DNA from: Hoylesella nanceiensis DSM 19126 = JCM 15639
Lineage (GTDB): Bacteria; Bacteroidota; Bacteroidia; Bacteroidales; Bacteroidaceae
Length of the DNA: 64,000 nucleotides
Direction of reading: 5' to 3'
Assembly (NCBI RefSeq): GCF_000379965.1
Contig: NZ_KB904328.1
Location: 186,001-250,000 of the forward strand
Numbering within the stretch: the stretch's first letter is position 1; each line of letters starts with the position of its first letter. A program made the translations under genes and the position numbers. Shown here in pieces: positions 1,981-62,657 of this stretch. The notes under the pieces were generated by a model. It had not been told where the DNA came from. It worked only from the letters and a program-made list of their open reading frames with translations, and ran no database searches.

Positions 1981-2068
1981 AAAAGCATTGCTATTGGTTT
2001 GTAAAAGCATTCCTTTTACACCGCAAAAGCATTGAGATTGCTACATAAAAGCACTACTATTGCAACAC
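1981..2068. repeat. 22-bp repeat array A, 4 units
   Basis: AAAAGC starts at 1981, 2003, 2025 and 2047, an exact 22-bp spacing. Units follow AAAAGCANTGCTWTT plus variable bases. A decayed unit may precede it at 1959. It lies between the divergent GH92 and GT4 genes. Confidence 0.9.
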
Positions 2069-2073
2069 AACAC

Positions 2074-2345
2074 GTCAGCTTATATATTCCAACCCCTCAC
2101 CTTTCCCTTTTCAACTCAAGGATAATTCGACGTAAAAGTAAGGCAAACACGATTAAAAAGCGATATCTTTTTGATCTTACTTTATTCTCTTTTTTTACTT
2201 CTAATCCCATCTTTTTCCAACGAGAAAGCACCACCCAAACAGCAAAAAACTCCTTATTTTCTACCCAAACCTCTCCCTTTTCCTCCTAATAACAACGCTT
2301 TTCTCACTCTCAAACAGACATACAACCAACAAAAAGCAGAACGAA
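2074..2345. other. Pyrimidine-rich, G-poor tract beside array A
   Basis: About 270 bp rich in C and T and poor in G on the plus strand. Open frames here (85 and 75 codons) translate to low-complexity S/T/P/F/L sequence and overlap each other, so no gene is called. Similar tracts lie beside two other repeat arrays. Confidence 0.6.
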
Positions 2346-2436
2346 AGGAACACAAGAGCTGTTCTCTTTCTGCATTTATTCATCGAAAATACGAATAATT
2401 AATCCTTTAAAAGCGTTGTATTTGCGATGCAAATCG

Positions 2437-2444
2437 TAACTTTG
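2437..2444 (+). promoter_or_regulatory. -7 box almost touching the GT4 start codon
   Basis: TAACTTTG ends 7 bases before the ATG at 2452. With the usual distance from -7 box to start of transcription, the mRNA would begin at or within a few bases of the ATG, so it would be leaderless or nearly so. A TTTG at 2421-2424 is too close to serve as a standard -33 box. Confidence 0.55.
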
Positions 2445-2451
2445 CAATATC

Positions 2452-3726
2452 ATGCGCATTCTTATTATCAATACAAGTGAAAAGACAGGGGGCGCTGCTG
2501 TTGCCTCGAACAGATTGCTTTCGGCTCTGAACAACAACGGAGTGAAAGCAAAAATGTTGGTACGCAACAAAGAAACTGAGAATCTTTCGGTTGTGAGTTT
2601 GCCTCACTCCCTAAAACAAAAGTGGAACTTTTTGTGGGAAAGGTTCTGCATTTTTCTTCATCTCCACTTATCAAAAAAGGGCTTATTCGATATTGATATT
2701 GCCAATACTGGATGCGACATCACCCGCACAAAGGAATTTTTAGAAGCTGACATCATTCATCTTGAATGGATTAATCAAGGTATGTTGTCGCTTAAAAACA
2801 TCAGAAAGATTATCGAAAGCGGTAAACCTGTGGTGTGGACAATGCACGATTTGTGGCCTGCAACGGCTCTTTGCCACTATGCACGTGGGTGTATTGCGTT
2901 TAAAACAAGTTGCAAACGCTGTCCATTGTTGCCTCATCACGGCTCTTTGAACGACCTTTCGGCTCGCATTTGGGCGCAAAAACAAAAGACTTACAGCAAG
3001 GGTAGAATTCATTTTGTGTGCTGTTCGAACTGGCTTGCACAACAAGCAAAGCAAAGTGGCTTACTAAAAGGGCACAGCATTACATCTATCCCCAACCCAA
3101 TAGACACACATATATTTCACCCTATCAATAAAAATGAGGCTCGAGAGGCTCTTTCTCTGCCTAAAGATAAGCACATTTTATTGTTCGTTTCGCAAAAGGT
3201 TACAAACGAAAGAAAGGGTGTTCACCACCTAATCGACGCTATTAAGGAGCTAACTGCACTGCACCCTCAACTAAAAGACACGCTGGCTGTTGCCCTAATG
3301 GGCGGAAGTGCAGACGAGGTGGCATCGCAATTGCCTGTTGAGACTTTCTCTTTGGGTTATATTAGCGATGACAAAACGCTCGTAAACGCTTATAATGCTG
3401 CCGATTTGTTCGTTATTCCATCGTTAGAAGACAATCTTCCTAATACCATTATGGAGGCTTTGGCATGCGGAATTCCTTGCGTTGGATTCAATATTGGCGG
3501 TATTCCTGAGATGATTACGCACGAGGTGAACGGCTATATCGCTCTTCCTAAAAGCGCAAAGAGTCTTGCTCAGGGCATTCACTGGGTACTTTCTCACCCT
3601 AACAAAGACGAGTTGGCACACCAAGCGGTGGCTAAAGTCAACCAAAACTACTCGCAACAGGGCGTCGCTATGCGCTATATCAACTTATATAATGAGGCTC
3701 TTGCTCGAAAAATTTACAAACTATGA
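2452..3726 (+). CDS. Glycosyltransferase family 4
   Basis: 424 residues, a GT-B retaining glycosyltransferase that would move a sugar from a nucleotide-sugar donor onto a cell-surface glycan precursor in the cytoplasm. The N-terminal half opens with MRILIINTSEKTGGAAVASN. The C-terminal half carries the donor-site region DLFVIPSLEDNLPNTIMEAL followed by GIPCVGFNIGGIPEMI, with the conserved E-x7-E-type arrangement. No signal peptide. It overlaps the following GT2 gene by ATGA, so the two are translationally coupled and probably act on the same glycan. The acceptor cannot be deduced. Confidence 0.9.
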   Translation: MRILIINTSEKTGGAAVASNRLLSALNNNGVKAKMLVRNKETENLSVVSLPHSLKQKWNFLWERFCIFLHLHLSKKGLFDIDIANTGCDITRTKEFLEADIIHLEWINQGMLSLKNIRKIIESGKPVVWTMHDLWPATALCHYARGCIAFKTSCKRCPLLPHHGSLNDLSARIWAQKQKTYSKGRIHFVCCSNWLAQQAKQSGLLKGHSITSIPNPIDTHIFHPINKNEAREALSLPKDKHILLFVSQKVTNERKGVHHLIDAIKELTALHPQLKDTLAVALMGGSADEVASQLPVETFSLGYISDDKTLVNAYNAADLFVIPSLEDNLPNTIMEALACGIPCVGFNIGGIPEMITHEVNGYIALPKSAKSLAQGIHWVLSHPNKDELAHQAVAKVNQNYSQQGVAMRYINLYNEALARKIYKL

Positions 3727-4499
3727 TTAGCTTTTCTATCATCACTTGCACTTTTAATGCACAAGATGTGTTGCAAAGAACGCTCGATAGTGTGGCGCAA
3801 CAGACGTATAAAAACATCGAACATCTTATTATTGATGGGGTTTCTCGTGACGAAACTCTATCAATGGCACATGCTTACGAGGCGAAAATAAGTAGTTCTT
3901 CGGAGCCATATAGCATTAAAATTGTGTCGGAAAGGGACAAAGGTTTATACGATGCGATGAATAAAGCGATTCAATTGGCGAGCAACGACTACATTGTTTT
4001 TATGAATGCGGGCGACACTTTCAAGGATATTGACACGCTTAAAACGATTGCTTCGTCGGTGAAAGAGGGCGAGTTGCTGCCAGGTGTGTTGTATGGCGAC
4101 ACGGATATCGTTGATATGGAGGGCAAGTTCTTGCGTAAACGCCATCTCCAAACGCCTCAAACGCTTACTTCTAATTCGTTTAAACATGGTATGTTGGTGT
4201 GTCATCAAGCTTTTTATGCACTCACTTCGATTGCTAAAACCACACCTTACGACTTGCAATATCGCTTTTCTGCTGACGTGGATTGGTGTATTCGTATCAT
4301 GAAAAAGAGTGAAGAGGAGCATCGTGCGTTGCGTAATGTGAATGCTATTGTTGCGAACTTCTTGGACGGTGGACTAACGACTGCAAATCACAGAGCATCA
4401 TTAAAGGAGCGTTTCAGGGTGATGTGTCATCATTATGGCTGCATCACTACTACCTTTATGCACCTTTGGTTCGCTATTAGAAATGTGTTGAAACGCTAA
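3723..4499 (+). CDS. Glycosyltransferase family 2
   Basis: 258 residues with a GT-A fold. It opens with FSIITCTFNAQDVLQRTLDS, then HLIIDGVSRDET and SERDKGLYDAMNKAI, and a DxD-like LYGDTDIVD further in. Typical of WcaA-like transferases that elongate capsule or O-antigen type glycans from inside the cell. It starts inside the stop codon of the GT4 gene (ATGA), forming a two-gene operon. Repeat array B and a hairpin lie downstream, facing the convergent M23 peptidase gene. Confidence 0.9.
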   Translation: MISFSIITCTFNAQDVLQRTLDSVAQQTYKNIEHLIIDGVSRDETLSMAHAYEAKISSSSEPYSIKIVSERDKGLYDAMNKAIQLASNDYIVFMNAGDTFKDIDTLKTIASSVKEGELLPGVLYGDTDIVDMEGKFLRKRHLQTPQTLTSNSFKHGMLVCHQAFYALTSIAKTTPYDLQYRFSADVDWCIRIMKKSEEEHRALRNVNAIVANFLDGGLTTANHRASLKERFRVMCHHYGCITTTFMHLWFAIRNVLKR

Positions 4500-4586
4500 T
4501 TTTCAAGGTCTTTTTCTATTCTTTTTCGCTGCTTTTATTTGCTTAAAGGTGGTTATTTCTTCGTGTCCTTTATATTATAATAAGGT

Positions 4587-4828
4587 GAAAGCTATGTTTT
4601 TTGCTTGTAAAAGCATTGCTATTACGTGCTAAAAGCAATGATATTCGAGGGTAAAAGCTATGGTATTATGCCTTATGAGAATTGGTATTTCATCTTCAAA
4701 AGAATAAGATTGCACTTCATGTGGAATGTTATTACACCTTAAAAGCACTGCTATTATGCCTCAAAAGCTATGCGGTTGCAAAGGAAAAGTTAAGCGGTTG
4801 CACCGAAAAAGGTGACTGATGATAACAA
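4587..4828. repeat. 22-bp repeat array B, 11 units in one register
   Basis: Clear units start at 4609, 4631, 4653, 4741 and 4763; recognisable ones at 4587, 4785 and 4807; decayed ones fill 4675, 4697 and 4719. All fall on the same 22-bp grid over 242 bp. This is the longest array in the window. It lies between the convergent GT2 and M23 peptidase genes. Confidence 0.85.
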
Positions 4829-4840
4829 AAAGGCAAAATA

Positions 4841-4874
4841 AAAAGCCCCTTAGAAACATCGTTCTAAAGGACTT
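4841..4874. terminator. Hairpin terminator between convergent genes
   Basis: AAAGCCCCTTAGAA pairs imperfectly with TTCTAAAGGACTTT across a 6-base loop. It is followed on the plus strand by CCCCTTTTTATTTTT and flanked on the left by A-rich sequence, so it could serve both the GT operon and the M23 gene. Confidence 0.6.
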
Positions 4875-5015
4875 TCCCCTTTTTATTTTTACATTAAAGT
4901 CTCTATCTTACTTTTGAAAGAACATTCTTTTAAGGTATGTTCTCATTCATTTCAAGTTGCCATTTCATTCTCTTCTAAAAACTCAGGCACCCTTCTTGAA
5001 ATCAACTGGCACCCC

Positions 5016-5963
5016 TTATGAGTAGCGAAGGACACGACCTGGGCGCAAATGTTCGTTCTTTTTGAGGTTGTTTAGCTCACAAAGTTTGTCAACAGTAACG
5101 CCACGTCGGCGAGCAATTGAGTACAATGTTTCTCCTGCAGACACAAAGTGATAGCTGCGATCTCCATCGTCTTTCTTCTCAGTTGTTTTGGCTTGAGCCA
5201 TTTCTCCACGTACTTCTGCAGGCGAATAGCTGCCGTTTCCGATCTTACCTCTTAGCTTAGTTGCTTCTTCCGACTCGCTATTGTAAGTACTTTTGTTAAA
5301 CACATAGTAGTCGCCTGTTACGTCTTGAGCTTTAAAGTCGAATAGAAGTGCAGGATTAAGTGCCACCCCACAGAGGCGAGTTTCAAAGTGCAAGTGTGAT
5401 CCAGTACTACGACCTGTGTTGCCACCAAGGCCAATTACGTCTCCAGCTTTAACGTCTTGATTCTCTGAAACCAATTGTTTTGAAAGGTGACCGTATATTG
5501 TTTCGAGTCCATTTGAGTGACGAATAACAATATATTTACCGTAACCACGCCCTTCATAAGCCACCATTCGCACCTTACCATTAAACGCTGCGCGGATAGT
5601 ATCACCGATATAAACTTTTATATCCAATCCTTTATGCGCACGACCCCAACGTGCTCCGAAGTTACTTGTAACGACTCTACTGGTTGTGGGCATACAGAAA
5701 TGACGCAAATTAATTTTGAAAGTGTCTGGAAGTGCAGTCTGACGATGAGCAAATTTGTTGTTCCAATCATCGTAAAGTTGCGCTGCAGGCGATTGAAGAT
5801 TTTCTCTTATTGCAATGCTTTTCATAACAAGTGTATCTACAGCCTTCATCTTTCGATCTACAGGAGCTTGTCTTGCAAGTAGATCTTGAGCGTGAATTGC
5901 GTTCGAAGAGAGAAGCATTAACGTTCCAAGAGCTAAAGTTTTAAGTGTTCTTTTTAAAGTCAT
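5016..5963 (-). CDS. M23 family metallopeptidase with C-terminal LysM domain
   Basis: 315 residues, a periplasmic peptidoglycan endopeptidase or regulator. I start it at ATG 5963 (MTLKRTLKTLALGTLMLLSS), which opens a signal peptide cut near IHAQ; an upstream in-frame start would add 36 residues ahead of the signal. The peptidase domain has both zinc motifs: HKGLDIK (H-x3-D) and GSHLHFE (HxH), with YGHLS between, so it should be active. The last 45 residues (YHFVSAGETLYSIARRRG onward) are a LysM peptidoglycan-binding module. A -7 box on the minus strand at 6078-6071 (TACCTTTG) suggests a 100-nt leader. Confidence 0.93.
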   Translation of the reverse strand: MTLKRTLKTLALGTLMLLSSNAIHAQDLLARQAPVDRKMKAVDTLVMKSIAIRENLQSPAAQLYDDWNNKFAHRQTALPDTFKINLRHFCMPTTSRVVTSNFGARWGRAHKGLDIKVYIGDTIRAAFNGKVRMVAYEGRGYGKYIVIRHSNGLETIYGHLSKQLVSENQDVKAGDVIGLGGNTGRSTGSHLHFETRLCGVALNPALLFDFKAQDVTGDYYVFNKSTYNSESEEATKLRGKIGNGSYSPAEVRGEMAQAKTTEKKDDGDRSYHFVSAGETLYSIARRRGVTVDKLCELNNLKKNEHLRPGRVLRYS

Positions 5964-6395
5964 AGTTATTCTTTTAAGTGATACTTCATGCCCTAAAAAC
6001 AAAGAATTCAAGGCAAGTTCATCAACTATTGCAACAACACAAAAGACACAATAGTCTACTGATAACCGCACAAAGGTAAGGAAAAAAGCTGGAAATTGCT
6101 CTTAATCAAGAATTTTTTATTACTTATTTAACTTTTTATTGTTTTTCAATTAAATGTTTCAATTCGGCAAAATTCAAAGTCGAAAAGTAACGAATTGTAT
6201 TATTTCCAACACCAAGAGCTATCTATATTCAATCAAAAGACGTTAAATTGAGCTTTCAACACCATAATATAATACACGTTTTTTAGTGCAAGTTAAAGGA
6301 CAAAAAAGCCTCTTTTGCTCCTTTTTACACCTATATTATATAGAGAAAGCGGTGATTAGACATTGAAAACCAATAAGAAATACCTCACAAAAGCA
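5964..6395. other. Gap between the M23 peptidase and recG genes
   Basis: AT-rich. It holds the likely M23 promoter (-7 box at 6071-6078, minus strand) and a weak hairpin, AAAGGA (6295-6300) with TCCTTT (6319-6324), which could end recG transcription. I see no gene and no 22-bp array here. Confidence 0.5.
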
Positions 6396-8501
6396 TTAAC
6401 TAATCGACGCCCAATCAATGGTAGCTTTCTTCATTTCCTTTAGTCTTTGCCACAACATCGCATACTCTGGCTTATCAAAATGCTCGTCATTCTCCACCAC
6501 TCGTTGTGCTTCATTGCGTGCCATTTGCACCAATTGACCATCACGAGCAATGTTAGCAATCTTCAAATCGAATGCCATTCCACTTTGTTGCGTTCCTTCT
6601 AAATCGCCAGGACCACGCAATTTGAGGTCAGCTTCAGCGATTTGGAATCCATCATTGGTTGCACACATAATGTCGATGCGTTTCTTTGTGTCGGCACTTA
6701 GTTTGTAGTTCGTCACCAAAATGCAGTAAGATTGGTCGCCACCACGCCCTACTCGCCCACGAAGTTGGTGCAATTGCGACAAACCAAAGCGCTGAGCTTC
6801 AAGTATAACCATAACAGTTGCGTTAGGAACATTCACTCCTACCTCGATAACTGTTGTGGCAACGAGAATCTGAGTCTCGCCTTTTACAAACCGATTCATT
6901 TCCTCTTCCTTCTCTTTAGGCTTCATTTTGCCGTGCACCTTACTCATTTTGAAGTTTGGAAACACCTCTTTCAAGTTCTCAAAGCCCGTTTCCAAGCTCT
7001 GTAAGTCCGTCTTTTCGCTTTCCTTAATCAATGGAAAAACAATGTAAACTTGCCTTCCTTGCGCCACTTGTTTGCGTATTCCGTCGTAAAGCGAAGCCGT
7101 TTGAGTGTCGTATTTATGAATGGTTTCGATGGGTTTTCTACCTGGTGGCAATTCATCTATCACGCTAACGTCGAGATCTCCGTATATAGTCATCGCCAAA
7201 GTGCGTGGAATAGGCGTTGCAGTCATCACCAAAACATGAGGCGGTTGTGCGCTTTTTGCCCACATTTTAGCTCTTTGAGCCACTCCAAAACGATGCTGTT
7301 CGTCTACCACAGCCACACCTAATCGAGCAAATTGAACGCTATCTTCGATCACAGCATGCGTACCAACGAGAATCTGAACCTCTCCTTTTTCAAGTCGAGT
7401 AAGAATGTCTTGTCGCTTTTTTCCTTTCACAGTGCCCGTCAACAACTCCACTTGCACATCTAAGCCCTTTAAGAATGAGGCGATAGTTGTGAAGTGTTGC
7501 TCTGCCAATATCTCAGTAGGAGCCATCAAACAAGCCTGAAAATCGTTGTCAATAGCAATGAGCATGGTCATCAAAGCAACGAGAGTTTTGCCCGATCCCA
7601 CATCGCCTTGCAACAAACGGTTCATCTGTCTGCCCGTAATCATATCGCTCCTAATTTCTTTCATCACTCGTTTTTGAGCGTTGGTGAGCGGAAATGGCAA
7701 GTTGTTGGTATAGAATGTGTTGAAAAAGTGACCAACCTTTGGAAGGAGATAGCCACGATATTTGCGACGATGTTCGGTTGAATAGCGAAGAATATTGAGC
7801 TGAACGAAGAACAATTCTTCGAATTTTAGACGCAATTGAGCATTCTGCACATCGGTTAAAGAAGTGGGATAGTGAATGTTTCGGAATGCTTCATAACGTG
7901 AAACAAGATGCAAACGCTCGGTGATAAAGGCGGGAAGGGTCTCTGGAAGGGCCTCTTCTGGAATTTTATCTACCAACATTCGGGTAATTTTCTCAATGGC
8001 TCTCGACTGCAATCCTGCCTTTTTCATCTTCTCTGTGGTGATGTAATAAGGCTGCATACGCATGGTTTCGATTTGCACCTCGCCCACTTTTTCGATCTCA
8101 GGGTGAGTAAATTGGTATCGTCCATTATAGAAAGTGGGCTTCCCAAACACCAAATATTCGTCGTTTAAATTATAGGTCTTGCGAATATATTGCGCTCCTT
8201 GAAACCACACCAAGTCTACAACTCCACCCGTTGAGCCCCTAAAATGCGCCACAAGTCGTTTGCGTCGTGGACCCATTTCGAACTCTTCAAAGCTCAAAAT
8301 ACGTCCTTTAATCTGCACGAAAGGCATGTCGCCCGTTAGCTCGTGCACTGCATAAATCTTACTTCGGTCTACATATTTGTATGGATAATACTCTAAAAGG
8401 TCGCCCCAAGTCTTTATTCCCAGCTCATTACTGAGAATCTCTTTGCGCTTAGGTCCAACGCCCTGAAGATACATAATGTCTTGTTCTAGAATATTACTCA
8501 T
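6396..8501 (-). CDS. recG: ATP-dependent DNA helicase RecG
   Basis: 701 residues, full length. RecG drives branch migration and fork regression during recombination and replication-fork rescue. An N-terminal wedge/OB region (DIMYLQGVGPKRKEIL...) precedes a superfamily 2 helicase core: Walker A LLQGDVGSGKTL, the DExH-type motif VVDEQHRFGVAQRA, motif III VLVMTATPIPRTLAM, and in the second RecA-like domain QILVATTVIEVGVNVPNA and QLHQLRGRVGRG. It lies downstream of ispD on the same strand, separated by 169 bp containing repeat array C. Confidence 0.97.
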   Translation of the reverse strand: MSNILEQDIMYLQGVGPKRKEILSNELGIKTWGDLLEYYPYKYVDRSKIYAVHELTGDMPFVQIKGRILSFEEFEMGPRRKRLVAHFRGSTGGVVDLVWFQGAQYIRKTYNLNDEYLVFGKPTFYNGRYQFTHPEIEKVGEVQIETMRMQPYYITTEKMKKAGLQSRAIEKITRMLVDKIPEEALPETLPAFITERLHLVSRYEAFRNIHYPTSLTDVQNAQLRLKFEELFFVQLNILRYSTEHRRKYRGYLLPKVGHFFNTFYTNNLPFPLTNAQKRVMKEIRSDMITGRQMNRLLQGDVGSGKTLVALMTMLIAIDNDFQACLMAPTEILAEQHFTTIASFLKGLDVQVELLTGTVKGKKRQDILTRLEKGEVQILVGTHAVIEDSVQFARLGVAVVDEQHRFGVAQRAKMWAKSAQPPHVLVMTATPIPRTLAMTIYGDLDVSVIDELPPGRKPIETIHKYDTQTASLYDGIRKQVAQGRQVYIVFPLIKESEKTDLQSLETGFENLKEVFPNFKMSKVHGKMKPKEKEEEMNRFVKGETQILVATTVIEVGVNVPNATVMVILEAQRFGLSQLHQLRGRVGRGGDQSYCILVTNYKLSADTKKRIDIMCATNDGFQIAEADLKLRGPGDLEGTQQSGMAFDLKIANIARDGQLVQMARNEAQRVVENDEHFDKPEYAMLWQRLKEMKKATIDWASIS

Positions 8502-8538
8502 TATTGTTCTTTATCTTATTGATTATCAACTGCTTCAC

Positions 8539-8626
8539 AAAAGCTATCCTATTACACTTCAAAAGCAATGCTTTTAGGGTGCAATATCAATGCTTTTAGC
8601 AGGTAAAAGCACTGTTTTTATTTTGA
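8539..8626. repeat. 22-bp repeat array C, 4 units
   Basis: Units start at 8539, 8561, 8583 and 8605. The second is a near-perfect palindrome, AAAAGCAATGCTTTTA. The array separates the co-directional ispD and recG genes. Confidence 0.9.
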
Positions 8627-8670
8627 GGTTTCTATCTTATTGGTTTGAAAAGAGATGGAGATTGGTTCTT

Positions 8671-9348: not shown

Positions 9349-9386
9349 TGTTGTCTCCTTTCTTTTGTGATGCGTTATTACGATAA

Positions 9387-9418
9387 CAAAGTTATTTAAA
9401 ACTTACTTATTTTCCAAA
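9387..9418 (-). promoter_or_regulatory. Promoter of ispD
   Basis: Minus strand TTTG (9418-9415), 20 bases, TAACTTTG (9394-9387): an excellent -33/-7 match giving a leader of about 33 nt. Confidence 0.75.
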
Positions 9419-10163: not shown

Positions 10164-10170
10164 ATCTTTG

Positions 10171-10198
10171 AATGCTTTTAGGGCGCAATGCCTCGAAA
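10171..10198. repeat. Isolated 1-1.5 unit of the 22-bp repeat
   Basis: AATGCTTTTAGGGCGCAATGC resembles the right half of one unit and the left half of the next in array C (AATGCTTTTAGGGTGCAAT). It lies between the small peptide gene and the fimbrillin gene. Confidence 0.5.
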
Positions 10199-10313
10199 GT
10201 TATAAAAAGATAGATATCTCATTACATTCGCCTTGTACCCCTTTTCTTTTATTATATAATAGGTACACGAGCGCAAAGAACTAACAAAACAGAATTAAAC
10301 CCACAAAAAAGAA

Positions 10314-53150: not shown

Positions 53151-53152
53151 CT

Positions 53153-55864: not shown

Positions 55865-55957
55865 TAGATAGGCGGTTGGAGAGGATAAGCCCCCCATTTA
55901 GAACGAGATAACAAAGCAACAAAAGCAGTGTTTTTTGCTTCTATCAAGATTATTGTT

Positions 55958-55965
55958 TATCTTTG
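55958..55965 (+). promoter_or_regulatory. -7 box of the SDR/PAP2 pair
   Basis: TATCTTTG, 30 bases before ATG 55996. No clear -33 TTTG; a TTTTTTGC lies about 20-25 bp upstream. Confidence 0.5.
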
Positions 55966-55995
55966 CAACCGCAAATATCAATCAATCAGCAAAGA

Positions 55996-56991
55996 ATGAA
56001 AGTATTAATCACAGGCGCAAGCGGCTTTATTGGCAGCTTTATTGTTGAAGAATCTCTGCGTCGTGGTATGGAAACGTGGGCTGCAATACGCCCAAATAGC
56101 TCGAAAGAGTTCCTTAGTGACGAAAGAATAAGATTTATAGAACTTGACCTTTCGAATGAAGAAACGCTCAAAAAACAGCTTGCTAACAACACATTCGACT
56201 ATGTAATACATGCTGCTGGAGCCACAAAATGCATCAATAAGGACGACTTTTTCAAAGTAAACACAGAAGGAACAAAGAACCTTGTCAATGCTCTTATTGC
56301 ATTGAAGATGCCCCTTAAACGCTTTATTTTTATCAGTTCACTAAGCGTTTACGGTCCTGTTCACGAACAACAACCCTACAAAGAGATTTGTGAAACAGAT
56401 GTTCCTGTCCCCAATACGGCGTATGCTGAAAGCAAACTTGCCGCTGAAGAGTATATCAACTCAATAGGAAACAATTTCCCTTACATTATTCTTAGACCCA
56501 CAGGTGTATACGGTCCACGTGAAAAAGACTATTTCATGATGGCCAAAAGCATTAAAAACCATATCGATTTTGCTGCGGGTTACAAGCAACAAGACCTCAC
56601 TTTTGTGTATGTTCAAGACGTTGTTCAAGTGGTTTTCCTTGCCTTTGACCGAGGAAAAAGCGGTAGAACATATTTCATTTCTGATGGTCATGTTTATTCA
56701 TCACGCCACTTTAGCGACCTTATTCGCAAGGAATTGGGTATGCCTTGGTGCCTTCGTATAGTGGCTCCGCTATGGGTTTTGCGTATTGTTACATTCGTTT
56801 CGGAATACATTTCACGCATAACAGGCAAAATAACTGCGCTCAATAACGATAAATACAACATATTAAAACAACGCAATTGGCGATGTAATATCGAGCCAAC
56901 TGTCGACGAATTGGGTTATAATCCATCGTTTAACCTAGAAAAAGGCGTTCATCTCACCATTCAATGGTATAGAGAACGAGGCGAAATTTAA
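55996..56991 (+). CDS. NAD(P)-dependent extended SDR (epimerase/dehydratase family)
   Basis: 331 residues from ATG 55996 (MKVLITGASGFIGSFIVEES); the frame extends upstream only via a TTG inside the promoter. NAD(P) motif GASGFIG (7-13), catalytic Ser near 115-116, Tyr143 and Lys147 (YAESK) all present, and LRPTGVYGPREKDYF. From memory it resembles the Bacteroides SDR (BT_0972 type) with 3-ketosphinganine reductase activity. Fifteen bases separate it from a PAP2 gene, which would fit sphingolipid synthesis. A sugar-nucleotide role is the alternative. Confidence 0.85.
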   Translation: MKVLITGASGFIGSFIVEESLRRGMETWAAIRPNSSKEFLSDERIRFIELDLSNEETLKKQLANNTFDYVIHAAGATKCINKDDFFKVNTEGTKNLVNALIALKMPLKRFIFISSLSVYGPVHEQQPYKEICETDVPVPNTAYAESKLAAEEYINSIGNNFPYIILRPTGVYGPREKDYFMMAKSIKNHIDFAAGYKQQDLTFVYVQDVVQVVFLAFDRGKSGRTYFISDGHVYSSRHFSDLIRKELGMPWCLRIVAPLWVLRIVTFVSEYISRITGKITALNNDKYNILKQRNWRCNIEPTVDELGYNPSFNLEKGVHLTIQWYRERGEI

Positions 56992-57006
56992 TAGGTTTCA
57001 ACACTC

Positions 57007-57975
57007 ATGAAGCATTTTATTATAGATTTATTCAAGATAGAAACAAAGCCAAGAAAAGGTCTTTTGGCTTTAGAATGGGCTGTGTTAGCCTATTTAGTGC
57101 TCACCACTTTGGTGATATTATTTACCTACACACGATTAGAAAACCCTGAATCTATGTTGTGGGGACGCCTTAGAATTGTGGCAATGACAATGGGTTTGTG
57201 GATTGTTTACAGACTTGTGCCATGCAAACTCACACAACTTGCACGAGTGTTAGCGCAATTTGGGCTCTTAGCATGGTGGTATCCCGACACTTATGAGATC
57301 AATAGAATCTTCCCAAACCTCGACCATTGGTTTGCAACATGCGAGCAACAGCTCTTCGGTTTTCAGCCATCTGTGTCGTTCTCTCAGGTCTTTTCGTCGC
57401 CCATCATTAGCGAATTAATGGATTTAGGCTATGTGTCTTACTATCCAATGATGGTGTTTTTGGTTCTATTTTATTTCTTCTACGATTACAAAAACTTTCA
57501 ACGTTGCGCCTTTGTCATCATCGCTTCGTTCATGGTTTACTATGTAATATACGACTTTTTGCCTGTGGTTGGACCCACATTCTACTTTAAAGCCATCGGA
57601 ATGGATAGCGTTTCAAAAGGCATATTCCCTGCTGTTGGACACTATTTCAATACACATACCGATTGTTTTCCTAGTCCGGGATACCCCAATGGCATATTTT
57701 ATCAACTCGTAGAGAGTGCTAAAGAGGCGGGAGAACGACCCACTGCAGCCTTCCCCAGCTCGCATGTTGGTATCTCAACTGTGTGTATGTTGTTGGCATG
57801 GCGCACGCAAAACCGTTGGTTGTTTTGGACACTTATGCCCTTCTTTGCCTTCTTGTGCATGGCAACAGTATATATTCAGGCTCACTATGCCATTGACACT
57901 ATTGCAGGATTAGTCACTGCAATTGCCTTTTACTTTATCTTTTGGGCCAAGTTTTGGCATAAAAACGAAGCATAA
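57007..57975 (+). CDS. PAP2 superfamily membrane protein (AUR1-like)
   Basis: 322 residues with six or more membrane helices. The phosphatase motifs are ERPTAAFPSSHVGIST (C2, SxxH) and YIQAHYAIDTIAG (C3, H-x3-D), both intact. Length and layout, with a long first half and motifs near the end, resemble AUR1-like enzymes that transfer phosphoinositol or phosphoethanolamine headgroups to ceramide, rather than short undecaprenyl-PP phosphatases. With the upstream SDR it could form part of a sphingolipid route; this is inference. A perfect terminator follows. Confidence 0.83.
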   Translation: MKHFIIDLFKIETKPRKGLLALEWAVLAYLVLTTLVILFTYTRLENPESMLWGRLRIVAMTMGLWIVYRLVPCKLTQLARVLAQFGLLAWWYPDTYEINRIFPNLDHWFATCEQQLFGFQPSVSFSQVFSSPIISELMDLGYVSYYPMMVFLVLFYFFYDYKNFQRCAFVIIASFMVYYVIYDFLPVVGPTFYFKAIGMDSVSKGIFPAVGHYFNTHTDCFPSPGYPNGIFYQLVESAKEAGERPTAAFPSSHVGISTVCMLLAWRTQNRWLFWTLMPFFAFLCMATVYIQAHYAIDTIAGLVTAIAFYFIFWAKFWHKNEA

Positions 57976-57992
57976 AACACCTTACATATGAT

Positions 57993-58019
57993 AAAGCTCT
58001 CGAACAATTCGAGAGCTTT
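57993..58019 (+). terminator. Terminator of the SDR/PAP2 pair
   Basis: AAAGCTCTCGAA, loop CAA, TTCGAGAGCTTT, then TTTTG: a perfect 12-bp stem. Confidence 0.9.
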
Positions 58020-58061
58020 TTTGTATCTCATTCATTTTCAACATCTTTCTTATCCATTCTT

Positions 58062-58149
58062 AAAAGGACTGCTTTTGGCTTGCAATTACATTGCTTTTAC
58101 AACCTAAAAACAATGCTTTTGAGGTGCAATTGCACTGCTTTTACGCAAG
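58062..58149. repeat. 22-bp repeat array R, 4 units
   Basis: Units start at 58062 (AAAAGG), 58084 (AATTAC), 58106 and 58128 (AATTGC). A further core, GACATTGCTTTTT, lies at about 58158 but out of register by about 4 bp. Confidence 0.86.
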
Positions 58150-58358
58150 AACTAAATGACATTGCTTTTTCAAGGCCTATGTGTTGGGGTTGCAAAGCAG
58201 GAGCAATGCGATTAAAAAGGGGGATTGAAGCACGAGAAATGGTGCTAAAACACAAAAAAAGACGATTAAAAATTTGCTCATTTCATATTTATATTGTTCC
58301 TTTGCCCACACGCAAATGACCCTCGGAAAGGGTCTTGAAAAGACACAATTGATTGTTT

Positions 58359-59006
58359 ATGGCAAGGCTTCGAGTTATATTTTTATTGATAACTATCTTC
58401 TTCACTACCGCCATCTCGGCACAAATTGAAGAGCAAGACGACAACACTCCTCCCCCAACTGATGTCGACTTAAACAATCCTGTGTTTGTTCCTATGATTA
58501 AAGTGGGCAAGGTTTTGCACGGAAAAGACAGCATTCAGTATATTCAAATGAATAATGTTTATGTTTATCCGCAACCTGTTTTCGAGAATGAAAAGCAACG
58601 TGAGGCTTATAATCGTCTTGTGTTGAACGTAAAAAAGGTGCTGCCCATTGCCAAAGAGGTGAACAAAATCATTATAGAAACATACGAATATCTCGAAACT
58701 TTGCCCAATAAAAAGGCAAAAGATGCCCACATGAAGGTGGTAGAAGAGAGCATTAAACGAGAATATACGCCTCGAATGAAGAAGCTTTCGTATAGTCAGG
58801 GCAAACTACTTATTAAGCTTATATATCGAGAAAGCAACTCTTCTTCCTACGGATTGATACAGGCTTTCCTCGGACCTGTGCGTGCGGGATTCTATCAAAC
58901 CTTTGCTTGGGTGTTCGGAGCAAGCCTCAAAAAGAAGTATGATCCTAACGGAGTGGATCGCTTAACCGAACGAGTTGTGCGACAAGTAGAGGCTGGACAG
59001 ATCTAA
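58359..59006 (+). CDS. DUF4294 domain protein, exported
   Basis: 215 residues from ATG 58359 (MARLRVIFLLITIFFTTAIS); a TTG two codons upstream is less likely. The signal peptide ends near ISAQ. The conserved body (QYIQMNNVYVYPQPVFENEK, AYNRLVLNVKKVLPIAKEVN, KLLIKLIYRESNSSSYGLIQ) fits DUF4294, a Bacteroidetes-only periplasmic family of unknown function. Monocistronic by position: a terminator and repeat array precede it and a promoter follows. Confidence 0.85.
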   Translation: MARLRVIFLLITIFFTTAISAQIEEQDDNTPPPTDVDLNNPVFVPMIKVGKVLHGKDSIQYIQMNNVYVYPQPVFENEKQREAYNRLVLNVKKVLPIAKEVNKIIIETYEYLETLPNKKAKDAHMKVVEESIKREYTPRMKKLSYSQGKLLIKLIYRESNSSSYGLIQAFLGPVRAGFYQTFAWVFGASLKKKYDPNGVDRLTERVVRQVEAGQI

Positions 59007-59144
59007 AAGGTATACTAATTCGCAGTTTATCAACAGAAAACAACAAATCAAAACACGGCCAATAAAAAAGTGAAAGTATCACAACTATTAGGTATTTTAT
59101 ACTTTTTATCACCCTAAAAAGTATGCTATTTCCTATTTTTTTAC

Positions 59145-59152
59145 TATCTTTG
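59145..59152 (+). promoter_or_regulatory. -7 box of manC
   Basis: TATCTTTG with the start codon at 59201; leader about 43 nt. It decides against the longer in-frame start at 59123, which would lie upstream of it. Confidence 0.6.
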
Positions 59153-59200
59153 AAGAAAGAAAAAACAGGCAGTTGCTCACTAATAAAACCTTGTATTACT

Positions 59201-60292
59201 ATGGAACTGATTGATCATTTATATTGTTTGATACTTGCTGGGGGCAAAGGAAAACGCTTATGGCCTTCGAGTAGGAATGAATATCCAAAGCAATTTATAG
59301 ATTTCTTTGGTGTGGGAAGAACGCAATTGCAACAAACATACGACCGACTTGCTCGCTTAGTACCTGCAAATCGCATTATAATCAGCACTTACCGAGAATA
59401 TGTTTCAATTGTAAAAGAACAATTACCTCATATCTCTGACGATCAAATATTAGACGAACCCATTCGCAAAGACACTGCTCCTGCTGTGGCATGGGCGGCT
59501 TATCGCATCACAAAATTAGACAAAAAAGCTACTATTTTGGTAACTCCTTCCGACCAAGACATACGCAATGAAGACGCATTTAGAGCCAATGTGCACGAAG
59601 CTTTGTCATTTATTGAGAAGAAAAAGGAGGCTATTGTGGCTATGGGAGTGCGTCCAACTCGACCCGAACCAGGCTATGGTTACATTCAAAGAGGCGACAA
59701 TGTAGACCACGATATCTATACCGTTAAGTCGTTTACAGAGAAACCTAATCGTGAATTTGCACAGCTATTTGTAGACAGTGGCGAGTTTTATTGGAACACA
59801 GGTATGTTCTTTGCAAGGGCAAAACAATTGCTAAAGAACACTTATAAGCTGCTTCCTACGGTGCTAAAGACCTTAGATGAGCAGAATCCTAACGCCACAT
59901 TAGAAGAAGAAAAGGCTTTTCTTGAAACCAATTATTATGAATATCCCAACATACCTATCGACAGAACGCTTTTAGAAAGGGCGTCGCACACCTATTTATT
60001 AAAGTGTGATTACGGATGGGCTGATATGGGAACATGGCACAGTATATATGAAGAAAAGAGCAACGACGGCACAGATAACGTGATAATTGATAGCGATGTG
60101 CTAATGGAAGACTGCTCTAATTGCGTTGTAAAGCTGCCCCAAGGCAAGCTTGCAGTTATCAATGGACTCGACGATTACATTGTTGCTGAACAAGACAATG
60201 TGCTCCTTATATGCAAAAAAGAAGACTCTTCGGCTCTCATTCGCAAGTATGTTACAGAAGTACAAGTGAAGAAAGGCGAAGAATATTGTTAG
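59201..60292 (+). CDS. manC: Mannose-1-phosphate guanylyltransferase
   Basis: 363 residues from ATG 59201, downstream of the promoter. It makes GDP-mannose, the donor for mannose and fucose in surface glycans. The nucleotidyltransferase motif LILAGGKGKRLWPSSRNEYP (GGxGxRLWP) opens it, and SFTEKPNREFAQLF (FxEKP) and GEFYWNTGMFFARA follow. The phosphomannose isomerase half seen in bifunctional ManC/AlgA is absent. It is a single-gene unit with a bidirectional terminator after it. Confidence 0.93.
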   Translation: MELIDHLYCLILAGGKGKRLWPSSRNEYPKQFIDFFGVGRTQLQQTYDRLARLVPANRIIISTYREYVSIVKEQLPHISDDQILDEPIRKDTAPAVAWAAYRITKLDKKATILVTPSDQDIRNEDAFRANVHEALSFIEKKKEAIVAMGVRPTRPEPGYGYIQRGDNVDHDIYTVKSFTEKPNREFAQLFVDSGEFYWNTGMFFARAKQLLKNTYKLLPTVLKTLDEQNPNATLEEEKAFLETNYYEYPNIPIDRTLLERASHTYLLKCDYGWADMGTWHSIYEEKSNDGTDNVIIDSDVLMEDCSNCVVKLPQGKLAVINGLDDYIVAEQDNVLLICKKEDSSALIRKYVTEVQVKKGEEYC

Positions 60293-60409
60293 AAATACCA
60301 CAAACACAGCATGCTATTAGCATGAGAAAACAAATGTGAAAAACATAGAGACAGTTGCTTTATACACCTTAATAGGCTATAAAACAGAGGAGATTTAACA
60401 GACACATAG

Positions 60410-60448
60410 AAAAGAAGAACAGACCCTTTAGGAGCCTGTTCTTCTTTT
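60410..60448. terminator. Bidirectional terminator between manC and the HAD gene
   Basis: AAAAGAAGAACAG (60410-60422) pairs with CTGTTCTTCTTTT (60436-60448), placed between convergent genes. Confidence 0.87.
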
Positions 60449-60449
60449 G

Positions 60450-61103
60450 TTATGCTTCTTTATCAATGATATCGAGCAACAAAGCAAAGTCGTCTATAAT
60501 CCAAGTTGCGCCTGCTTGCTCTAAACTTTCTTTCGTTCCGTTTCCAAAAGTAACGCCAACAGTGCGCACACCAGCCCTTTTTCCCATTTCAATATCAAAC
60601 CAAGTGTCGCCCACAACAATTGTTTCTTCGGGCTTAAAGTGCTGTTCCTCTAACGTTTTTAGAACGGGTTCGGGATGCGGTTTGTGGTTCGAAACCTCGT
60701 CTGCACCTAGGATATAGGGCATAAAGTCGATGAGTTCCATTTCCTCGAGCAAAGCCTTTGCCGACCAAGAGCGGCGACTTGTGGCGATAGTCATTTGTAT
60801 TTCACGACGTGCCAACTCGTGAATTGTATCAATAACATGCTCGAAAGGTGGCACACAACCAGGCTTATTGTTACGCCTAAACACCTTTTCATAGGTCGCA
60901 ACACATTGCTCTTGCATGTCTTTATCAACGCCTGCAAGTTGCACAAAGGCAGCTCTTAGGGGCAAGCCAATGGTTTCTCGGCACTCTTGAGCAGTGCAAA
61001 CACGCAAGTTAAGCTCTGAAAGTGTATCTTGAAAGCATTGCACAATTAAGGCAGTAGAATCGCCAATCGTTCCATCGAAGTCGAAAATTATATTTTTAAT
61101 CAT
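60450..61103 (-). CDS. HAD family hydrolase, phosphoglycolate phosphatase-like
   Basis: 217 residues. Motif I NIIFDFDGTIGDSTALIVQC, a helical cap, motif II MTIATSRR, motif III Lys in SNHKPHPEPVLKTL, motif IV VVGDTWFDIEMGKRAG: a complete HAD phosphatase active site of the Gph/PGM subfamily. Soluble. Substrate not determinable; phosphoglycolate or pyrophosphate are typical. Alone on the minus strand, convergent with manC, divergent from trhP. Confidence 0.9.
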   Translation of the reverse strand: MIKNIIFDFDGTIGDSTALIVQCFQDTLSELNLRVCTAQECRETIGLPLRAAFVQLAGVDKDMQEQCVATYEKVFRRNNKPGCVPPFEHVIDTIHELARREIQMTIATSRRSWSAKALLEEMELIDFMPYILGADEVSNHKPHPEPVLKTLEEQHFKPEETIVVGDTWFDIEMGKRAGVRTVGVTFGNGTKESLEQAGATWIIDDFALLLDIIDKEA

Positions 61104-61259
61104 ATTTCTTTACATTTTAAAGTCACATCCTAACAAATGATGATGTTTTCATTTTAAGTCCCGAATACAAAGCATTCAAACGGTCACAAAAGTACAAATA
61201 ATTCATTGTTTCTTATATATAATAATGTAATAAAATATCAATTACTGAAGAGTTTTACG

Positions 61260-61267
61260 TAACTTTG
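61260..61267 (+). promoter_or_regulatory. -7 box almost touching the trhP start codon
   Basis: TAACTTTG ends 7 bases before ATG 61275. The 18-base stretch TAACTTTGCAACATCATG differs at one base from that before the GT4 gene at 2437. A leaderless or near-leaderless mRNA is predicted. Confidence 0.55.
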
Positions 61268-61274
61268 CAACATC

Positions 61275-62534
61275 ATGATTAAAGAACAGGATATAAATAA
61301 GTATGAAATAATGGCGCCAGTGGGCTCAAGAGAGAGCTTAATGGCAGCAATTCAGGCTGGAGCGAACTCCATTTACTTTGGTATTGGACAGCTAAATATG
61401 CGCTCACATTCAGCCAATCACTTCACAATAGACGATCTTCACGAAATAGCTTCGATATGTTCTGAACACGGAATAAAGAGCTATTTGACCGTGAACACTA
61501 TTATTTACGGAGGTGATATCGAAACAATGCACCGCATAGTAGACGCTGCAAAAGAAGCAAAAGTAAGTGCAGTTATTGCCGCCGACGTTGCAGTTATTAT
61601 GTATTGTCGTAGCATTGGTGTTGAGGTTCACTTGTCTACACAGCTCAACATCACCAATATCGATTCGTTAAAGTTCTATGCTCAATATGCCGATGTAGTG
61701 GTATTGGCTCGTGAACTCAATATGGAACAAGTGTCAGAGATACACCGTCGCATTATAGAAGACGATGTTCGTGGCCCTAATGGCGAGCTTGTTCGCATTG
61801 AAATGTTCTGCCATGGCGCACTATGTATGGCGGTATCGGGCAAGTGTTATTTAAGTATCGACAACGAAGCACATTCGGCTAATCGTGGAGATTGCCGTCA
61901 AGTGTGCCGTCGTTCGTATATTGTTACCGACAAAGAAACAGGCACTGAGCTCGAAGTAGATAACCAATACATCATGAGTCCCAAAGACCTTAAGACCTTA
62001 AGGTTCATCGATAAGATGATGGATGCAGGTGTAAGAGTATTCAAAATCGAAGGTCGTGCACGTGGACCAGAGTATGTTTACAAGGTAGTTACATGCTATA
62101 AAGAAGCCATTGAGAGCGTATTAAACGGCACTTTCACTGAAGAAAAGAAGGATAAGTGGGACGAAGAGCTATCAAAAGTGTTCAATCGTGGCTTCTGGGA
62201 CGGCTATTATCAAGGCCAAAAGCTGGGCGAATGGAACAAAAACTATGGTAGTGCAGCCACCGAAAAGAAAGTACTTGTGGGCAAAGTAGTAAAATATTTC
62301 TCTAAAATAGGCGTGGCAGAGATTGCTGTTACCGCTTCTGAAATAGAGAAAGGAGAACGCATTTTGATCACAGGACCTACCACTGGAGTGATGTATCTCG
62401 ATGCAAATGAAATTCGATACGACCTCAATCCAGTTGAAAAGGTAGAGAAAGGTTGGAACGTTTCAATCCCCGTTACCGACAAAGTGCGCCCTAACGACAA
62501 AGTGTTTAAGCTCGTTACTGTAGCCCCCAAATAA
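61275..62534 (+). CDS. trhP: Peptidase U32 family tRNA hydroxylation protein
   Basis: 419 residues. It opens YEIMAPVGSRESLMAAIQAG and has the U32 signature region EMFCHGALCMAVSGKCYLS with CRQVCRRSYIVTD, the four cysteines expected to hold an iron-sulfur cluster. The C-terminal domain (GKVVKYFSKIGVAEIAV) is a barrel-like add-on. YegQ/TrhP is needed to make 5-hydroxyuridine at the wobble position of tRNA from prephenate; related RlhA acts on 23S rRNA. TrhP fits length and cysteine pattern best. Confidence 0.88.
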   Translation: MIKEQDINKYEIMAPVGSRESLMAAIQAGANSIYFGIGQLNMRSHSANHFTIDDLHEIASICSEHGIKSYLTVNTIIYGGDIETMHRIVDAAKEAKVSAVIAADVAVIMYCRSIGVEVHLSTQLNITNIDSLKFYAQYADVVVLARELNMEQVSEIHRRIIEDDVRGPNGELVRIEMFCHGALCMAVSGKCYLSIDNEAHSANRGDCRQVCRRSYIVTDKETGTELEVDNQYIMSPKDLKTLRFIDKMMDAGVRVFKIEGRARGPEYVYKVVTCYKEAIESVLNGTFTEEKKDKWDEELSKVFNRGFWDGYYQGQKLGEWNKNYGSAATEKKVLVGKVVKYFSKIGVAEIAVTASEIEKGERILITGPTTGVMYLDANEIRYDLNPVEKVEKGWNVSIPVTDKVRPNDKVFKLVTVAPK

Positions 62535-62547
62535 CACATTGTCTGGC

Positions 62548-62657
62548 AAAAGCTATGAGTTTGCACCCCAAAAGCAATGCACTTACACCCTAAAAGCAGT
62601 GCTTTTACATTGCAAAGTCAATGCTTTTCTAACCCAAGAGCAAAAGCCTTATAAACA
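62548..62657. repeat. 22-bp repeat array S, 4-5 units
   Basis: Units start at 62548, 62570, 62592 and 62614, with a weak fifth at 62636. It lies between the co-directional trhP and sufE genes. Confidence 0.88.

Follow-up and report, generated by a model that had tools for sequence, protein, structure and literature searches.

Genome-wide periodicity of A-tracts at about 11 bp is known to persist in some species, preferentially at third codon positions, and, in the parts of the reports considered here, two genomes given as examples lack it where prophages are integrated (PMC3431218, PMC3940949). A periodicity of about 11 bp is likewise described for cyanobacteria in the section used of PMC4132750. 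As far as these excerpts go, the published method uses distances of 30–100 bp, and other work speaks of signals of about 100 bp; Prevotella is not mentioned in the sections considered of PMC3940949, PMC3431218 or PMC7537859. Among dispersed repeats, REP/BIME elements with RAYT comprise many extragenic palindromes, according to the part of PMC3733652 considered. The BrickBuilt elements of Porphyromonas gingivalis, also of the Bacteroidales, are described in the excerpt used as intergenic tandem units of 23 nt, present at 19 loci in 1 to 22.8 copies and accompanied by a leader and a tail (Klein et al. 2015, PMC4596501). PINSR is a 188-bp repeat with the trait of being absent from conjugative elements; the section on it mentions no 22-bp units, register or link to periodicity, and our comparison with it is by description (PMC4755523).

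The 64-kb window (the whole stretch of DNA analysed) has many extragenic palindromes, as do REP/BIME elements, and tandem units similar in length to those of BrickBuilt. The original prediction that it carries arrays of a 22-bp palindromic unit was borne out: AAAAGCANTGCTTTT, with up to three mismatches, occurs 89 times, compared with 13.05 ± 3.83 times in 100 dinucleotide shuffles, none of which reached 89. A scan with a four-unit profile, for which 15 of the window's arrays served as the training set, found 16 arrays in the window at scores above 22, 46 in contig C5 (391,522 bp) and 26 in the scanned portion of contig C1 (C1:111001–385400), so that the arrays do recur elsewhere in the genome, as had been expected. 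Simulated sequence (two first-order simulations per stretch) yielded none at that score. The three stretches make up 27.5% of the genome, and by extrapolation a genome would hold ~290 arrays. The predicted density, one array in every ~4 kb, is that of the window; arrays are sparser in C5 (one per 8.5 kb) and C1 (one per 10.6 kb). An Rfam search of the window at gathering scores returned no match. The features of the window are as follows.

1981..2061, plus strand: four-unit array (profile scan; sequence model, 74.9 bits)
4587..4667, plus strand: four-unit array (profile scan and sequence model)
4719..4799, plus strand: weaker array sharing its gap and 22-bp register with the array at 4587 (profile score 47)
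8539..8619, minus strand: four-unit array between ispD and recG (profile scan and sequence model)
13020..13100, plus strand: four-unit array (profile scan and sequence model)
15426..15461, no strand: two decayed units, 21 bp apart (unit-motif matches)
22551..22631, plus strand: four-unit array in a convergent gap (profile scan and sequence model)
24441..24455, no strand: single perfect unit (unit-motif match)
25649..25729, plus strand: four-unit array within the 3′ part of ORF 25483–26949 (profile scan and ORF calls)
30768..30848, minus strand: four-unit array (profile scan and sequence model)
33908..33988, plus strand: four-unit array (profile scan and sequence model)
36017..36097, plus strand: four-unit array, its units 2–4 almost the same as 40960–41018 (profile scan)
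40938..41018, plus strand: four-unit array, near-copy of the array at 36017 (profile scan)
43986..44066, minus strand: four-unit array (profile scan and sequence model)
48358..48482, minus strand: six-unit array in a convergent gap (profile scan)
53381..53461, plus strand: four-unit array (profile scan and sequence model)
58062..58142, minus strand: four-unit array (profile scan)
62548..62628, plus strand: four-unit array (profile scan and sequence model)
1..64000, no strand: A/T ripple with a period of 10.98 bp, coherent over kilobases, phase-locked to the arrays and strongest at third codon positions

The units are imperfect palindromes of 15–17 bp at a spacing of 22 bp, or two helical turns. 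Distances between unit pairs in C5 (121 at 22 bp, 80 at 44, 37 at 66 and 4 at 88) approximate 3:2:1:0, and the arrays are therefore quantised at four units. Logo, phase and orientation tests used the 79 of 88 arrays that score at least 45; 63 of these have four contiguous units, 13 have fewer and 3 have more. Array cores are conserved, and spacers and flanks are near random, with spacer identity (out of 5) of 1.69 ± 0.07 within an array and 1.60 between arrays. The units are partly directional (pair concordance 0.62 versus 0.506 ± 0.022). The claim that the 22-bp frame survives sequence decay proved to be the key clue: on both sides of the arrays, in-phase 22-bp slots outscore out-of-phase slots, with z of 7.9–12.3 per slot. 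The original prediction was silent on the four-unit rule, on how evenly the arrays are spaced, on the differing palindromes of different species and on the 11-bp register, which spans the chromosome and to which the arrays are locked.

None of the known repeat classes that had been put forward as alternatives fits these arrays. A RAYT-type gene was sought, as had been suggested for the REP/BIME possibility, and PF01797 (Y1 transposase) had no matches in this genome (G000) or in G003, G005, G008, G012 and G017; matches do exist in the array-bearing G004, G006, G010 and G016. A REP/BIME stem-loop is rejected as well, with no overall excess of compensatory pairs and 0 predicted base pairs; unlike REP/BIME, the arrays have no stem kept by covariation and hold a fixed four-unit 22-bp register. 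A minisatellite is at odds with the copy number fixed at four (63/79) and with spacers hardly more alike within arrays than between them. As for MITE or BrickBuilt elements, the flanks (±40 bp) of the 79 arrays show no conservation, with neither conserved terminal inverted repeats nor a leader or tail, and BrickBuilt differs in unit length and in its variable copy number. Composite arrays of roughly 3+3+3 22-bp units occur in G010, and at ~190 bp they come close in length to PINSR. Attempts to tie G010 to P. intermedia gave no link, either by tryptophanase, for which G010 shows no clear match, or by plasmid similarity. This genome differs in having four units and another palindrome, and it shares with PINSR the absence of profile arrays from a conjugative element (C5:87.2–183.6 kb).

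Among relatives, represented by one genome per species (27–150 candidates scored per genome in searches with the array model), the four-by-22 layout is kept with different palindromes: AAAAGGTNACCTTTT in G010, ATTTGNNNCAAAT in G016 and several in G003. Beyond the genus, 257 kb from elsewhere in the family yielded 13 quadruplets at period 22, one of them from a stretch picked around a known match, versus 0–1 at each of nine other periods. The sites themselves vary. ispD and recG, separated here by the array at 8539..8619, lie 0 bp apart in G016 and about 15 bp apart in G010; the gap holding the array at 30768..30848 corresponds to about 12 bp in G003; the genes flanking the array at 33908..33988 overlap in G003, whereas in G024 a gap of 255 bp separates them and holds no array. 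Conversely, G003 carries an array where the genes of this genome are 16 bp apart. By these comparisons, arrays are both gained and lost. In stretches of G012 picked around known matches (as were some of G063 and G099), 3 of the 3′ array sites are shared, 7 are found in this genome only, 1 in G012 only and 23 in neither, so the sharing is only suggestive.

With gaps of at least 100 bp classified by a custom ORF caller, arrays occupy 29 of 53 convergent, 47 of 188 tandem and 6 of 61 divergent gaps, and four lie in ORFs. Occurrence in all gap types was thus correctly foreseen, but neutrality to gene context was not, as convergent gaps are favoured (p 2.5e-6). Neither G012 nor G024 shows this bias, and in G010 it does not reach significance. 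Spacing between arrays is even (CV 0.48 versus a null of 0.75 ± 0.07), with 4 distances below 2.5 kb versus 20.0 ± 3.1 expected. It is likewise even in G016 (p 0.0007), the test being not significant in G010 (p 0.15) and G003 (p 0.085). Inter-array distances cluster weakly near zero modulo 21.966 bp (R·sqrt(n) 2.55, n = 76) and not modulo 10.983 (1.34); we give the former little weight because several periods were tried. The conjugative element (TraM, TraG, relaxase and integrase among 10 scanned of its 60 called ORFs) contains, besides no profile array, one motif-free quadruplet (score 53, at 118536).

Persistent periodicity, taken as genome-wide A/T periodicity of 10–11 bp beyond protein coding, is found here both as spectral lines and in synonymous shuffles. 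An A/T line at 10.98 bp is present in all three stretches and persists with arrays ±100 bp masked; at third codon positions it rises over background 20-fold in C5, 14-fold in C1 and 55-fold in the window. Third-position A/T swings between 0.51 and 0.82 at 140–500 bp from arrays, and in recG alone from 0.35 to 0.82. When synonymous codons were shuffled in genes of 600–4500 bp, all 37 window genes exceeded at least 99 of 100 shuffles, as did 145 of 173 in C5 outside the island, 109 of 172 in C1, 0 of 22 in the conjugative element, from which the ripple is absent, and 0–1 of 31 in E. coli (excluding an IS150 gene and a gene truncated by the end of the stretch). Period and third-position preference resemble those of the known ~11-bp periodicity. 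Unlike the latter, the ripple here keeps its phase over 1–2 kb and is locked to dispersed palindrome arrays. In C5, coherence falls from 0.43 at 110 bp to 0.27 at 1.1 kb. Computed with local detrending, arrays masked and random-phase controls, the lock at 300–600 bp from 79 arrays reaches 9.1 of a possible 12.6, and palindrome dyads fall at A/T minima. G016, G010 and G012 are locked at the same 180-degree phase, where symmetry permits 0 or 180 only; the lock in G003 is not significant. A 22-bp A-minus-T line is present in this genome, weak (2.1x) in G010 and absent in G016 and G024. Ripple strength is high in this genome, G016 and G010, and no ripple was seen in G009. Four-by-22 arrays occur in G024 with no ripple found, and in G028, G063 and other genera with none detected, the small samples there (7–60 kb) being unable to prove absence; in stretches of 7–20 kb the best line reaches 2–6x background through period choice alone. 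Amplitude in C5 hardly drops away from arrays (2.86 at up to 500 bp and 2.37 at more than 4.5 kb); the register may therefore be something on which the arrays are placed, and not their product. Genome-wide ~11-bp periodicity is itself already known, and what appears novel is the kilobase-coherent ripple locked to arrays: in the literature searched, as far as the portions considered extend, we found no report of kilobase coherence or of a lock to repeats.

We propose, with the scales about level, that the arrays, putatively bound by protein, act as phase anchors in a nucleoid structure resembling chromatin. Putative cooperative binding of dimers on one helix face is still the simplest way to account for the units, and each array would as a rule hold four dimers, one beside the other, of a single DNA-binding protein with sequence specificity. 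DNA on both sides, over 1–2 kb and through genes, keeps one rotational register; the rotational setting of the chromosome would be fixed along a scaffold of protein, or the DNA would be continuously curved or wrapped. Anchors about every 6 kb between transcription units would nucleate or reset this register, and long residence of the structure could have written the ripple into the sequence, mainly at synonymous positions. Lrp/AsnC octamers wrap DNA, and archaeal hypernucleosomes are a case of continuous wrapping; they illustrate possible working modes, in which each of four palindromes would carry a dimer or the DNA would be wrapped without a break in one constant register. The readers tested (RAYT, ParB/Noc, Lrp/AsnC) yielded no binding protein. 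Lrp paralogues differ from the needed reader in that their recognition helices, at the position we take them to occupy, are near-identical across genomes with different palindromes (type B in G000, G003, G010, G012 and G016; type A in G003, G010, G012 and G016), and the occurrence of Lrp is not tied to that of arrays, since G005, at 86% completeness, has array matches and no PF01037 match. A ParB/Noc reader is rejected in turn, since array-bearing genomes carry no extra ParB paralogue as a rule: PF02195 has one match each in G000, G010, G012, G016 and the array-poor G009, G020 and G022, a second weak match in G003 and G019, and three in G006.

A specific form of this proposal, which we hold tentatively, is a new bacterial chromatin in which a dimeric polymerising protein would nucleate on ~6-kb-spaced arrays and coat kilobases in 22-bp register; selection or repair would write the register into synonymous codons, with sequence preference variable between species and geometry constant. 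It is rather less probable that the ripple is a fossil without benefit, left by uneven mutation or repair around a helix in fixed rotational setting, the arrays still being positioning sites. Enrichment at third codon positions, where mutations survive, and absence from the conjugative element agree with such an imprint, yet the amplitude (third-position A/T 0.51 to 0.82, and 0.35 to 0.82 in recG) is very large for it; with one genome per species it is inseparable from selection, which Atzinger and Lawrence 2020 favour for ordinary periodicity in the section considered (PMC7537859). Curvature alone, with phased A/T tracts bending DNA so that the tips of plectonemes or the ends of domains are pinned between transcription units, and with no reader protein, seems unlikely. 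It draws on the known ~11-bp A-tract periodicity (PMC3940949, PMC3431218, in the parts considered) and on a wedge model in which the end-to-end ratio is 0.903 at arrays versus 0.943 in other intergenic DNA and is also lower at arrays in G012, G010 and G016. However, G003 arrays keep four-by-22 palindromes and are not predicted to be curved (0.954 versus 0.945, p 0.68), and bending needs neither palindromes nor a fixed four nor the 22-bp A-minus-T line of this genome.

We consider it improbable that a mobile PINSR- or MITE-like family has spread by copying, with target immunity producing the even spacing. Empty sites in relatives at three arrays of this genome, the near-copies at 36017 and 40938 and the excess of array pairs with at least 13 of 21 equal spacer letters (72 versus 33 in the shuffle) are what copying would leave. 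Yet most spacers of the 79 arrays are near shuffle expectation, ends and flanks are not conserved, Y1 transposase (the family searched) is absent from this genome, the conjugative element lacks arrays, the two-unit pattern has 0 exact matches in viral contigs, which also speaks against carriage by phages, and copying does not account for arrays being locked in phase to a register that continues through genes. An RNA-level element, in which tandem hairpins would serve as terminators or give stability at the 3′ end, would suit the enrichment in convergent gaps and is nonetheless very hard to credit. No consensus RNA structure was obtained for 15 window arrays, array orientation is unrelated to transcription (22/43), and terminator-like hairpins are as frequent at array-free convergent ends (22/48) as in array 3′ gaps (46/105). 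With a fixed dyad, 316 units of this genome show no overall compensatory change between arms; totals in relatives are z 0.4 in G003, −2.1 in G016 and −4.2 in G012. Single covarying pairs do occur (offset 14 in G003, z 5.9; several in G010), and we attribute the total of z 6.5 in G010 to the two unit types of that genome. The lack of overall arm compensation suggests that half-sites are read separately, as by a protein dimer.

If the phase-anchor proposal is right, Prevotella-like bacteria would fix the register of their chromosome strongly enough to shape synonymous codons in all tested window genes, with a bearing on models of codon usage and on recognition of foreign DNA, and it may explain PINSR repeats. 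The purpose of bacterial ~11-bp periodicity would become testable through defined anchor sites and a strict phase prediction, with the conjugative element as a natural negative control within the same cell and with relatives available for comparison, some of which have the ripple and some of which lack it. Should the new-chromatin form hold, the cell could tell DNA without the register, of which the conjugative element is an example, as foreign.

The Hoylesella nanceiensis chromosome carries two layers of organization, dispersed and evenly spaced arrays of four palindromes and a chromosome-wide helical register that is locked to them. The original prediction, that a 22-bp palindromic unit is in excess in the window and forms arrays elsewhere in the genome, is borne out on both counts. 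In the window, the unit AAAAGCANTGCTTTT with up to three mismatches has 89 matches against 13.05 ± 3.83 expected. Over the whole genome, whose 12 contigs total 2,650,108 bp, 67 matches to a strict two-unit pattern lie on both strands, some overlapping, compared with 0 for the reversed control. A sequence-only model built from 15 window arrays gave 159 genome-wide matches with 150 of 3,046 candidates scored, one array sometimes being matched on both strands. We examined 729,922 bp (27.5% of the genome), namely contig C5, the stretch C1:111001-385400 and the window, C2:186001-250000, in which a unit profile detected 46, 26 and 16 arrays, respectively; at the same cut-off, two simulations per stretch yielded none. 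Extrapolation from C5 and C1 only (72 arrays in 666 kb) puts the genome total at about 290. By RecG, the closest named genomes are those of Prevotella and Prevotellaceae (71–74% identity).

Unit pairs in C5 lie at multiples of 22 bp, and their counts (121 at 22 bp, 80 at 44 bp, 37 at 66 bp and 4 at 88 bp) indicate arrays of four units. Among the 79 arrays used for anatomy and phase, 63 consist of four contiguous units, 13 of two or three, and 3 of five or six. The consensus unit is YAAAAGCAWTGCTWTTR plus a 5-bp spacer. Spacers of different arrays are about as alike as shuffling predicts, with similar pairs slightly in excess, and those within an array are barely more alike; units of the same array tend to share one orientation, and no conservation was found in the flanks. 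Two window arrays 4.9 kb apart (36017-36097 and 40938-41018) have almost identical units 2–4 and are the only clear recent copy among the 79. Overall, the palindrome arms do not covary in 316 own units or in the relatives G003, G016 and G012, a single G003 pair (z 5.9) excepted, and RNAalifold predicted 0 pairs for 15 arrays. This pattern favors a DNA site whose two halves would be read separately by a protein dimer, rather than a hairpin.

Arrays are enriched between convergent genes (in 29 of 53 gaps of at least 100 bp, compared with 47 of 188 tandem and 6 of 61 divergent gaps), and 4 lie inside ORFs. The array at window:25649-25729 falls within the 3′ portion of an ORF for polysaccharide synthesis, whose reading frame stays open. 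The convergent bias recurs in G016 (6/10) and G003 (6/9), is not significant in G010 and is absent from G012 and G024. Terminator-like hairpins occur in 46 of 105 array-bearing 3′ gaps; among array-free gaps, 22 of 48 convergent and 24 of 141 tandem ones have them. Arrays are therefore located between transcription units rather than in place of terminators. Their spacing is even, with a mean coefficient of variation of 0.48 against 0.75 ± 0.07 expected and 4 distances below 2.5 kb against 20.0 ± 3.1. An eligible gap adjoining an occupied one is itself occupied in 9 of 80 cases, compared with 80 of 265 overall. Spacing is likewise even in G016 (p 0.0007), with the same direction, not significant, in G010 (p 0.15) and G003 (p 0.085). 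As for turnover, relatives have abutting genes at three own array sites, and the reverse was seen once, in G003.

The four-by-22 layout is more widespread than the AAAAGC motif. The AAAAGC model matches 16 of 60 genomes. Besides our own, these are 15 of the other 35 in the genus, some of which have just one or two matches; none of 24 genomes from other families is matched. In a sample of 151 genomes from the family, searched at a stricter limit, it matched 4. A search for quadruplets of similar units that presupposed no motif found period 22 in G010 (AAAAGGTNACCTTTT), G016 (ATTTGNNNCAAAT), G003 (several palindromes) and G024. Control periods of 19, 20, 23, 25 and 26 gave 0–3 quadruplets per genome, and periods divisible by three gave some, from coding repeats. 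Other genera of the family (257 kb) had 13 quadruplets at 22 and at most one at each of nine other periods. There were none in six stretches from other families of the order (120 kb), in 30 named Bacteroidaceae loci (369 kb) or in five named Prevotella loci (66 kb), and one, within background, in 45 further Bacteroidota loci (550 kb). In G003, L204:1-285 holds three neighboring arrays, of which two are of the TTTCTCACGTGTTCC palindrome type and one is of the GTTTCATCATGATGAAAC type. Many G010 arrays are composites of about 190 bp, with about three GGTNACC units, three AT-rich ones and three more:

G010 composite arrays, L193-L202, e.g. L201:8060-8250: 22-bp units, about 3+3+3, with AAAAGGTNACCTTTT on the outside and AAAAATAATTTATTTTT in the middle

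They resemble the 188-bp PINSR repeat of P. intermedia described in PMC4755523, and may be the form that PINSR takes in the P. intermedia group. PINSR and the P. gingivalis BrickBuilt repeat are the nearest known repeats.

As candidate readers, RAYT transposases and ParB paralogues were rejected, their occurrence failing to follow the arrays. The Lrp/AsnC octamer consists of four dimers and was considered for that reason. Two main Lrp/AsnC types (L283-L302), of which our genome has type B only, have near-invariant recognition helices across the genus. Lrp/AsnC was rejected as well, as the helices of both types are near-identical across genomes with very different palindromes; that of type B is also found in G009, where 60 kb contain no array.

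The original remark that the 22-bp frame persists within arrays where the sequence has decayed is right, and the frame also goes on outside them: in-frame 22-bp slots beyond the arrays outscore out-of-frame positions on both sides (z 7.9–12.3), at distances of up to several hundred bp, coding sequence included. This excess is explained by a sharp A/T line at 10.98 bp, which spectral analysis revealed in all three own stretches and which survives masking of arrays ±100 bp. In C5 its phase coherence goes from 0.43 at 110 bp through 0.35 at 550 bp and 0.27 at 1.1 kb to 0.13 at 2.2 kb; shuffling in 33-bp blocks removes the ripple, and random deletions every ~500 bp lower the 550-bp coherence to 0.11. 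At third codon positions the line stands 20x (C5), 14x (C1) and 55x (window) above background, compared with 1.5–4.6x at positions 1 and 2. With arrays masked, A minus T has a line at 21.94–21.98 bp (4.7x, 4.5x and 14x), so the repeat in our genome is 22 bp and not merely 11. G003 has this line at 22.1 bp (5.2x), G010 weakly, and G016 and G024 not at all. Perfect tandem repeats of an 11-bp unit, a period equal to that of the ripple, occur at window:24480-24509 and 62684-62705.

As a gene-level control, we took genes of 600–4500 bp and permuted codons between positions that encode identical residues, a pass being the 98–99% level of 10.983-bp power. In the window 37 of 37 genes pass (0/37 at 10.5 bp and 1/37 at 11.5 bp), as do 145/173 in C5 outside the conjugative element and 109/172 in C1; recG by itself goes from 0.35 to 0.82 in third-position A/T according to phase. 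Among relatives, the passes are 76/93 (G016), 55/115 (G010), 35/111 (G003) and 2/73 (G024). A 50-kb stretch of E. coli K-12 gave 0–1 of 31 genes and no coherence. None of 22 genes passes in the conjugative element (C5:87.2-183.6 kb), where the profile found no array and the ripple is absent over 91–143 kb. A scan of 10 of the 60 ORFs called in it turned up products that include TraM, TraG, a relaxase, an integrase, a reverse transcriptase, an AAA helicase-like protein and a type I restriction specificity subunit.

Line and coherence together were found in our genome (29x), G016 (14x), G010 (7.8x), G012 (5.3x) and G003 (5.1x); G004 (40 kb), G111 and G147 (20 kb each) are tentative additions. 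Survey stretches of 7–20 kb were too noisy for a verdict. Kilobase coherence was absent, with a line of 1.3–2.2x, from G009, G019, G022 and G024, as well as from named Bacteroidaceae (320 kb) and other Bacteroidota (600 kb).

The ripple is locked to the arrays. At 300–600 bp from the 79 arrays the lock is 9.1 of a possible 12.6 (random-phase 99% null, 2.7), and it remains above the null at 2.2–3 kb. Third-position A/T follows the phase of the arrays' own A/T tracts and swings from 0.51 to 0.82 at 140–500 bp, 0.54–0.82 at 0.5–1 kb, 0.57–0.78 at 1–1.5 kb and 0.58–0.74 at 1.5–2.2 kb. The lock extends to 3 kb in G010 (23 arrays) and to about 1 kb in G016 (17) and G012 (27), and is not significant in G003 (9); in G010, G016 and G012, too, dyads sit at A/T minima irrespective of the palindrome. 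Arrays and ripple are nevertheless separable, since G024 (L215, L233-L242) and G063 (L266-L267) show no coherent 11-bp ripple despite their four-by-22 arrays. We are accordingly less sure that arrays nucleate the register, as its amplitude barely drops away from them and G024 has arrays without it.

A genome-wide periodicity of ~11 bp, biased to third positions and missing from prophage regions, is already known from PMC3431218, PMC3940949 and PMC4132750; the method described covers distances of 30–100 bp. Our literature search, which covered few subscription papers, returned no report of the four-by-22 layout, of palindromes within it that change from one species to the next or of kilobase coherence locked to such arrays. 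We infer that nucleoid structure lies behind the register. Continuous wrapping or coating would impose a kilobase-long fixed rotational setting that runs through genes and is recorded at synonymous sites, with either selection for bendability or unevenness of mutation and repair as the means. Four units make 88 bp, or eight turns of 10.98 bp, so gain or loss of an array would keep the register on both sides, and this may be the reason for the count of four.
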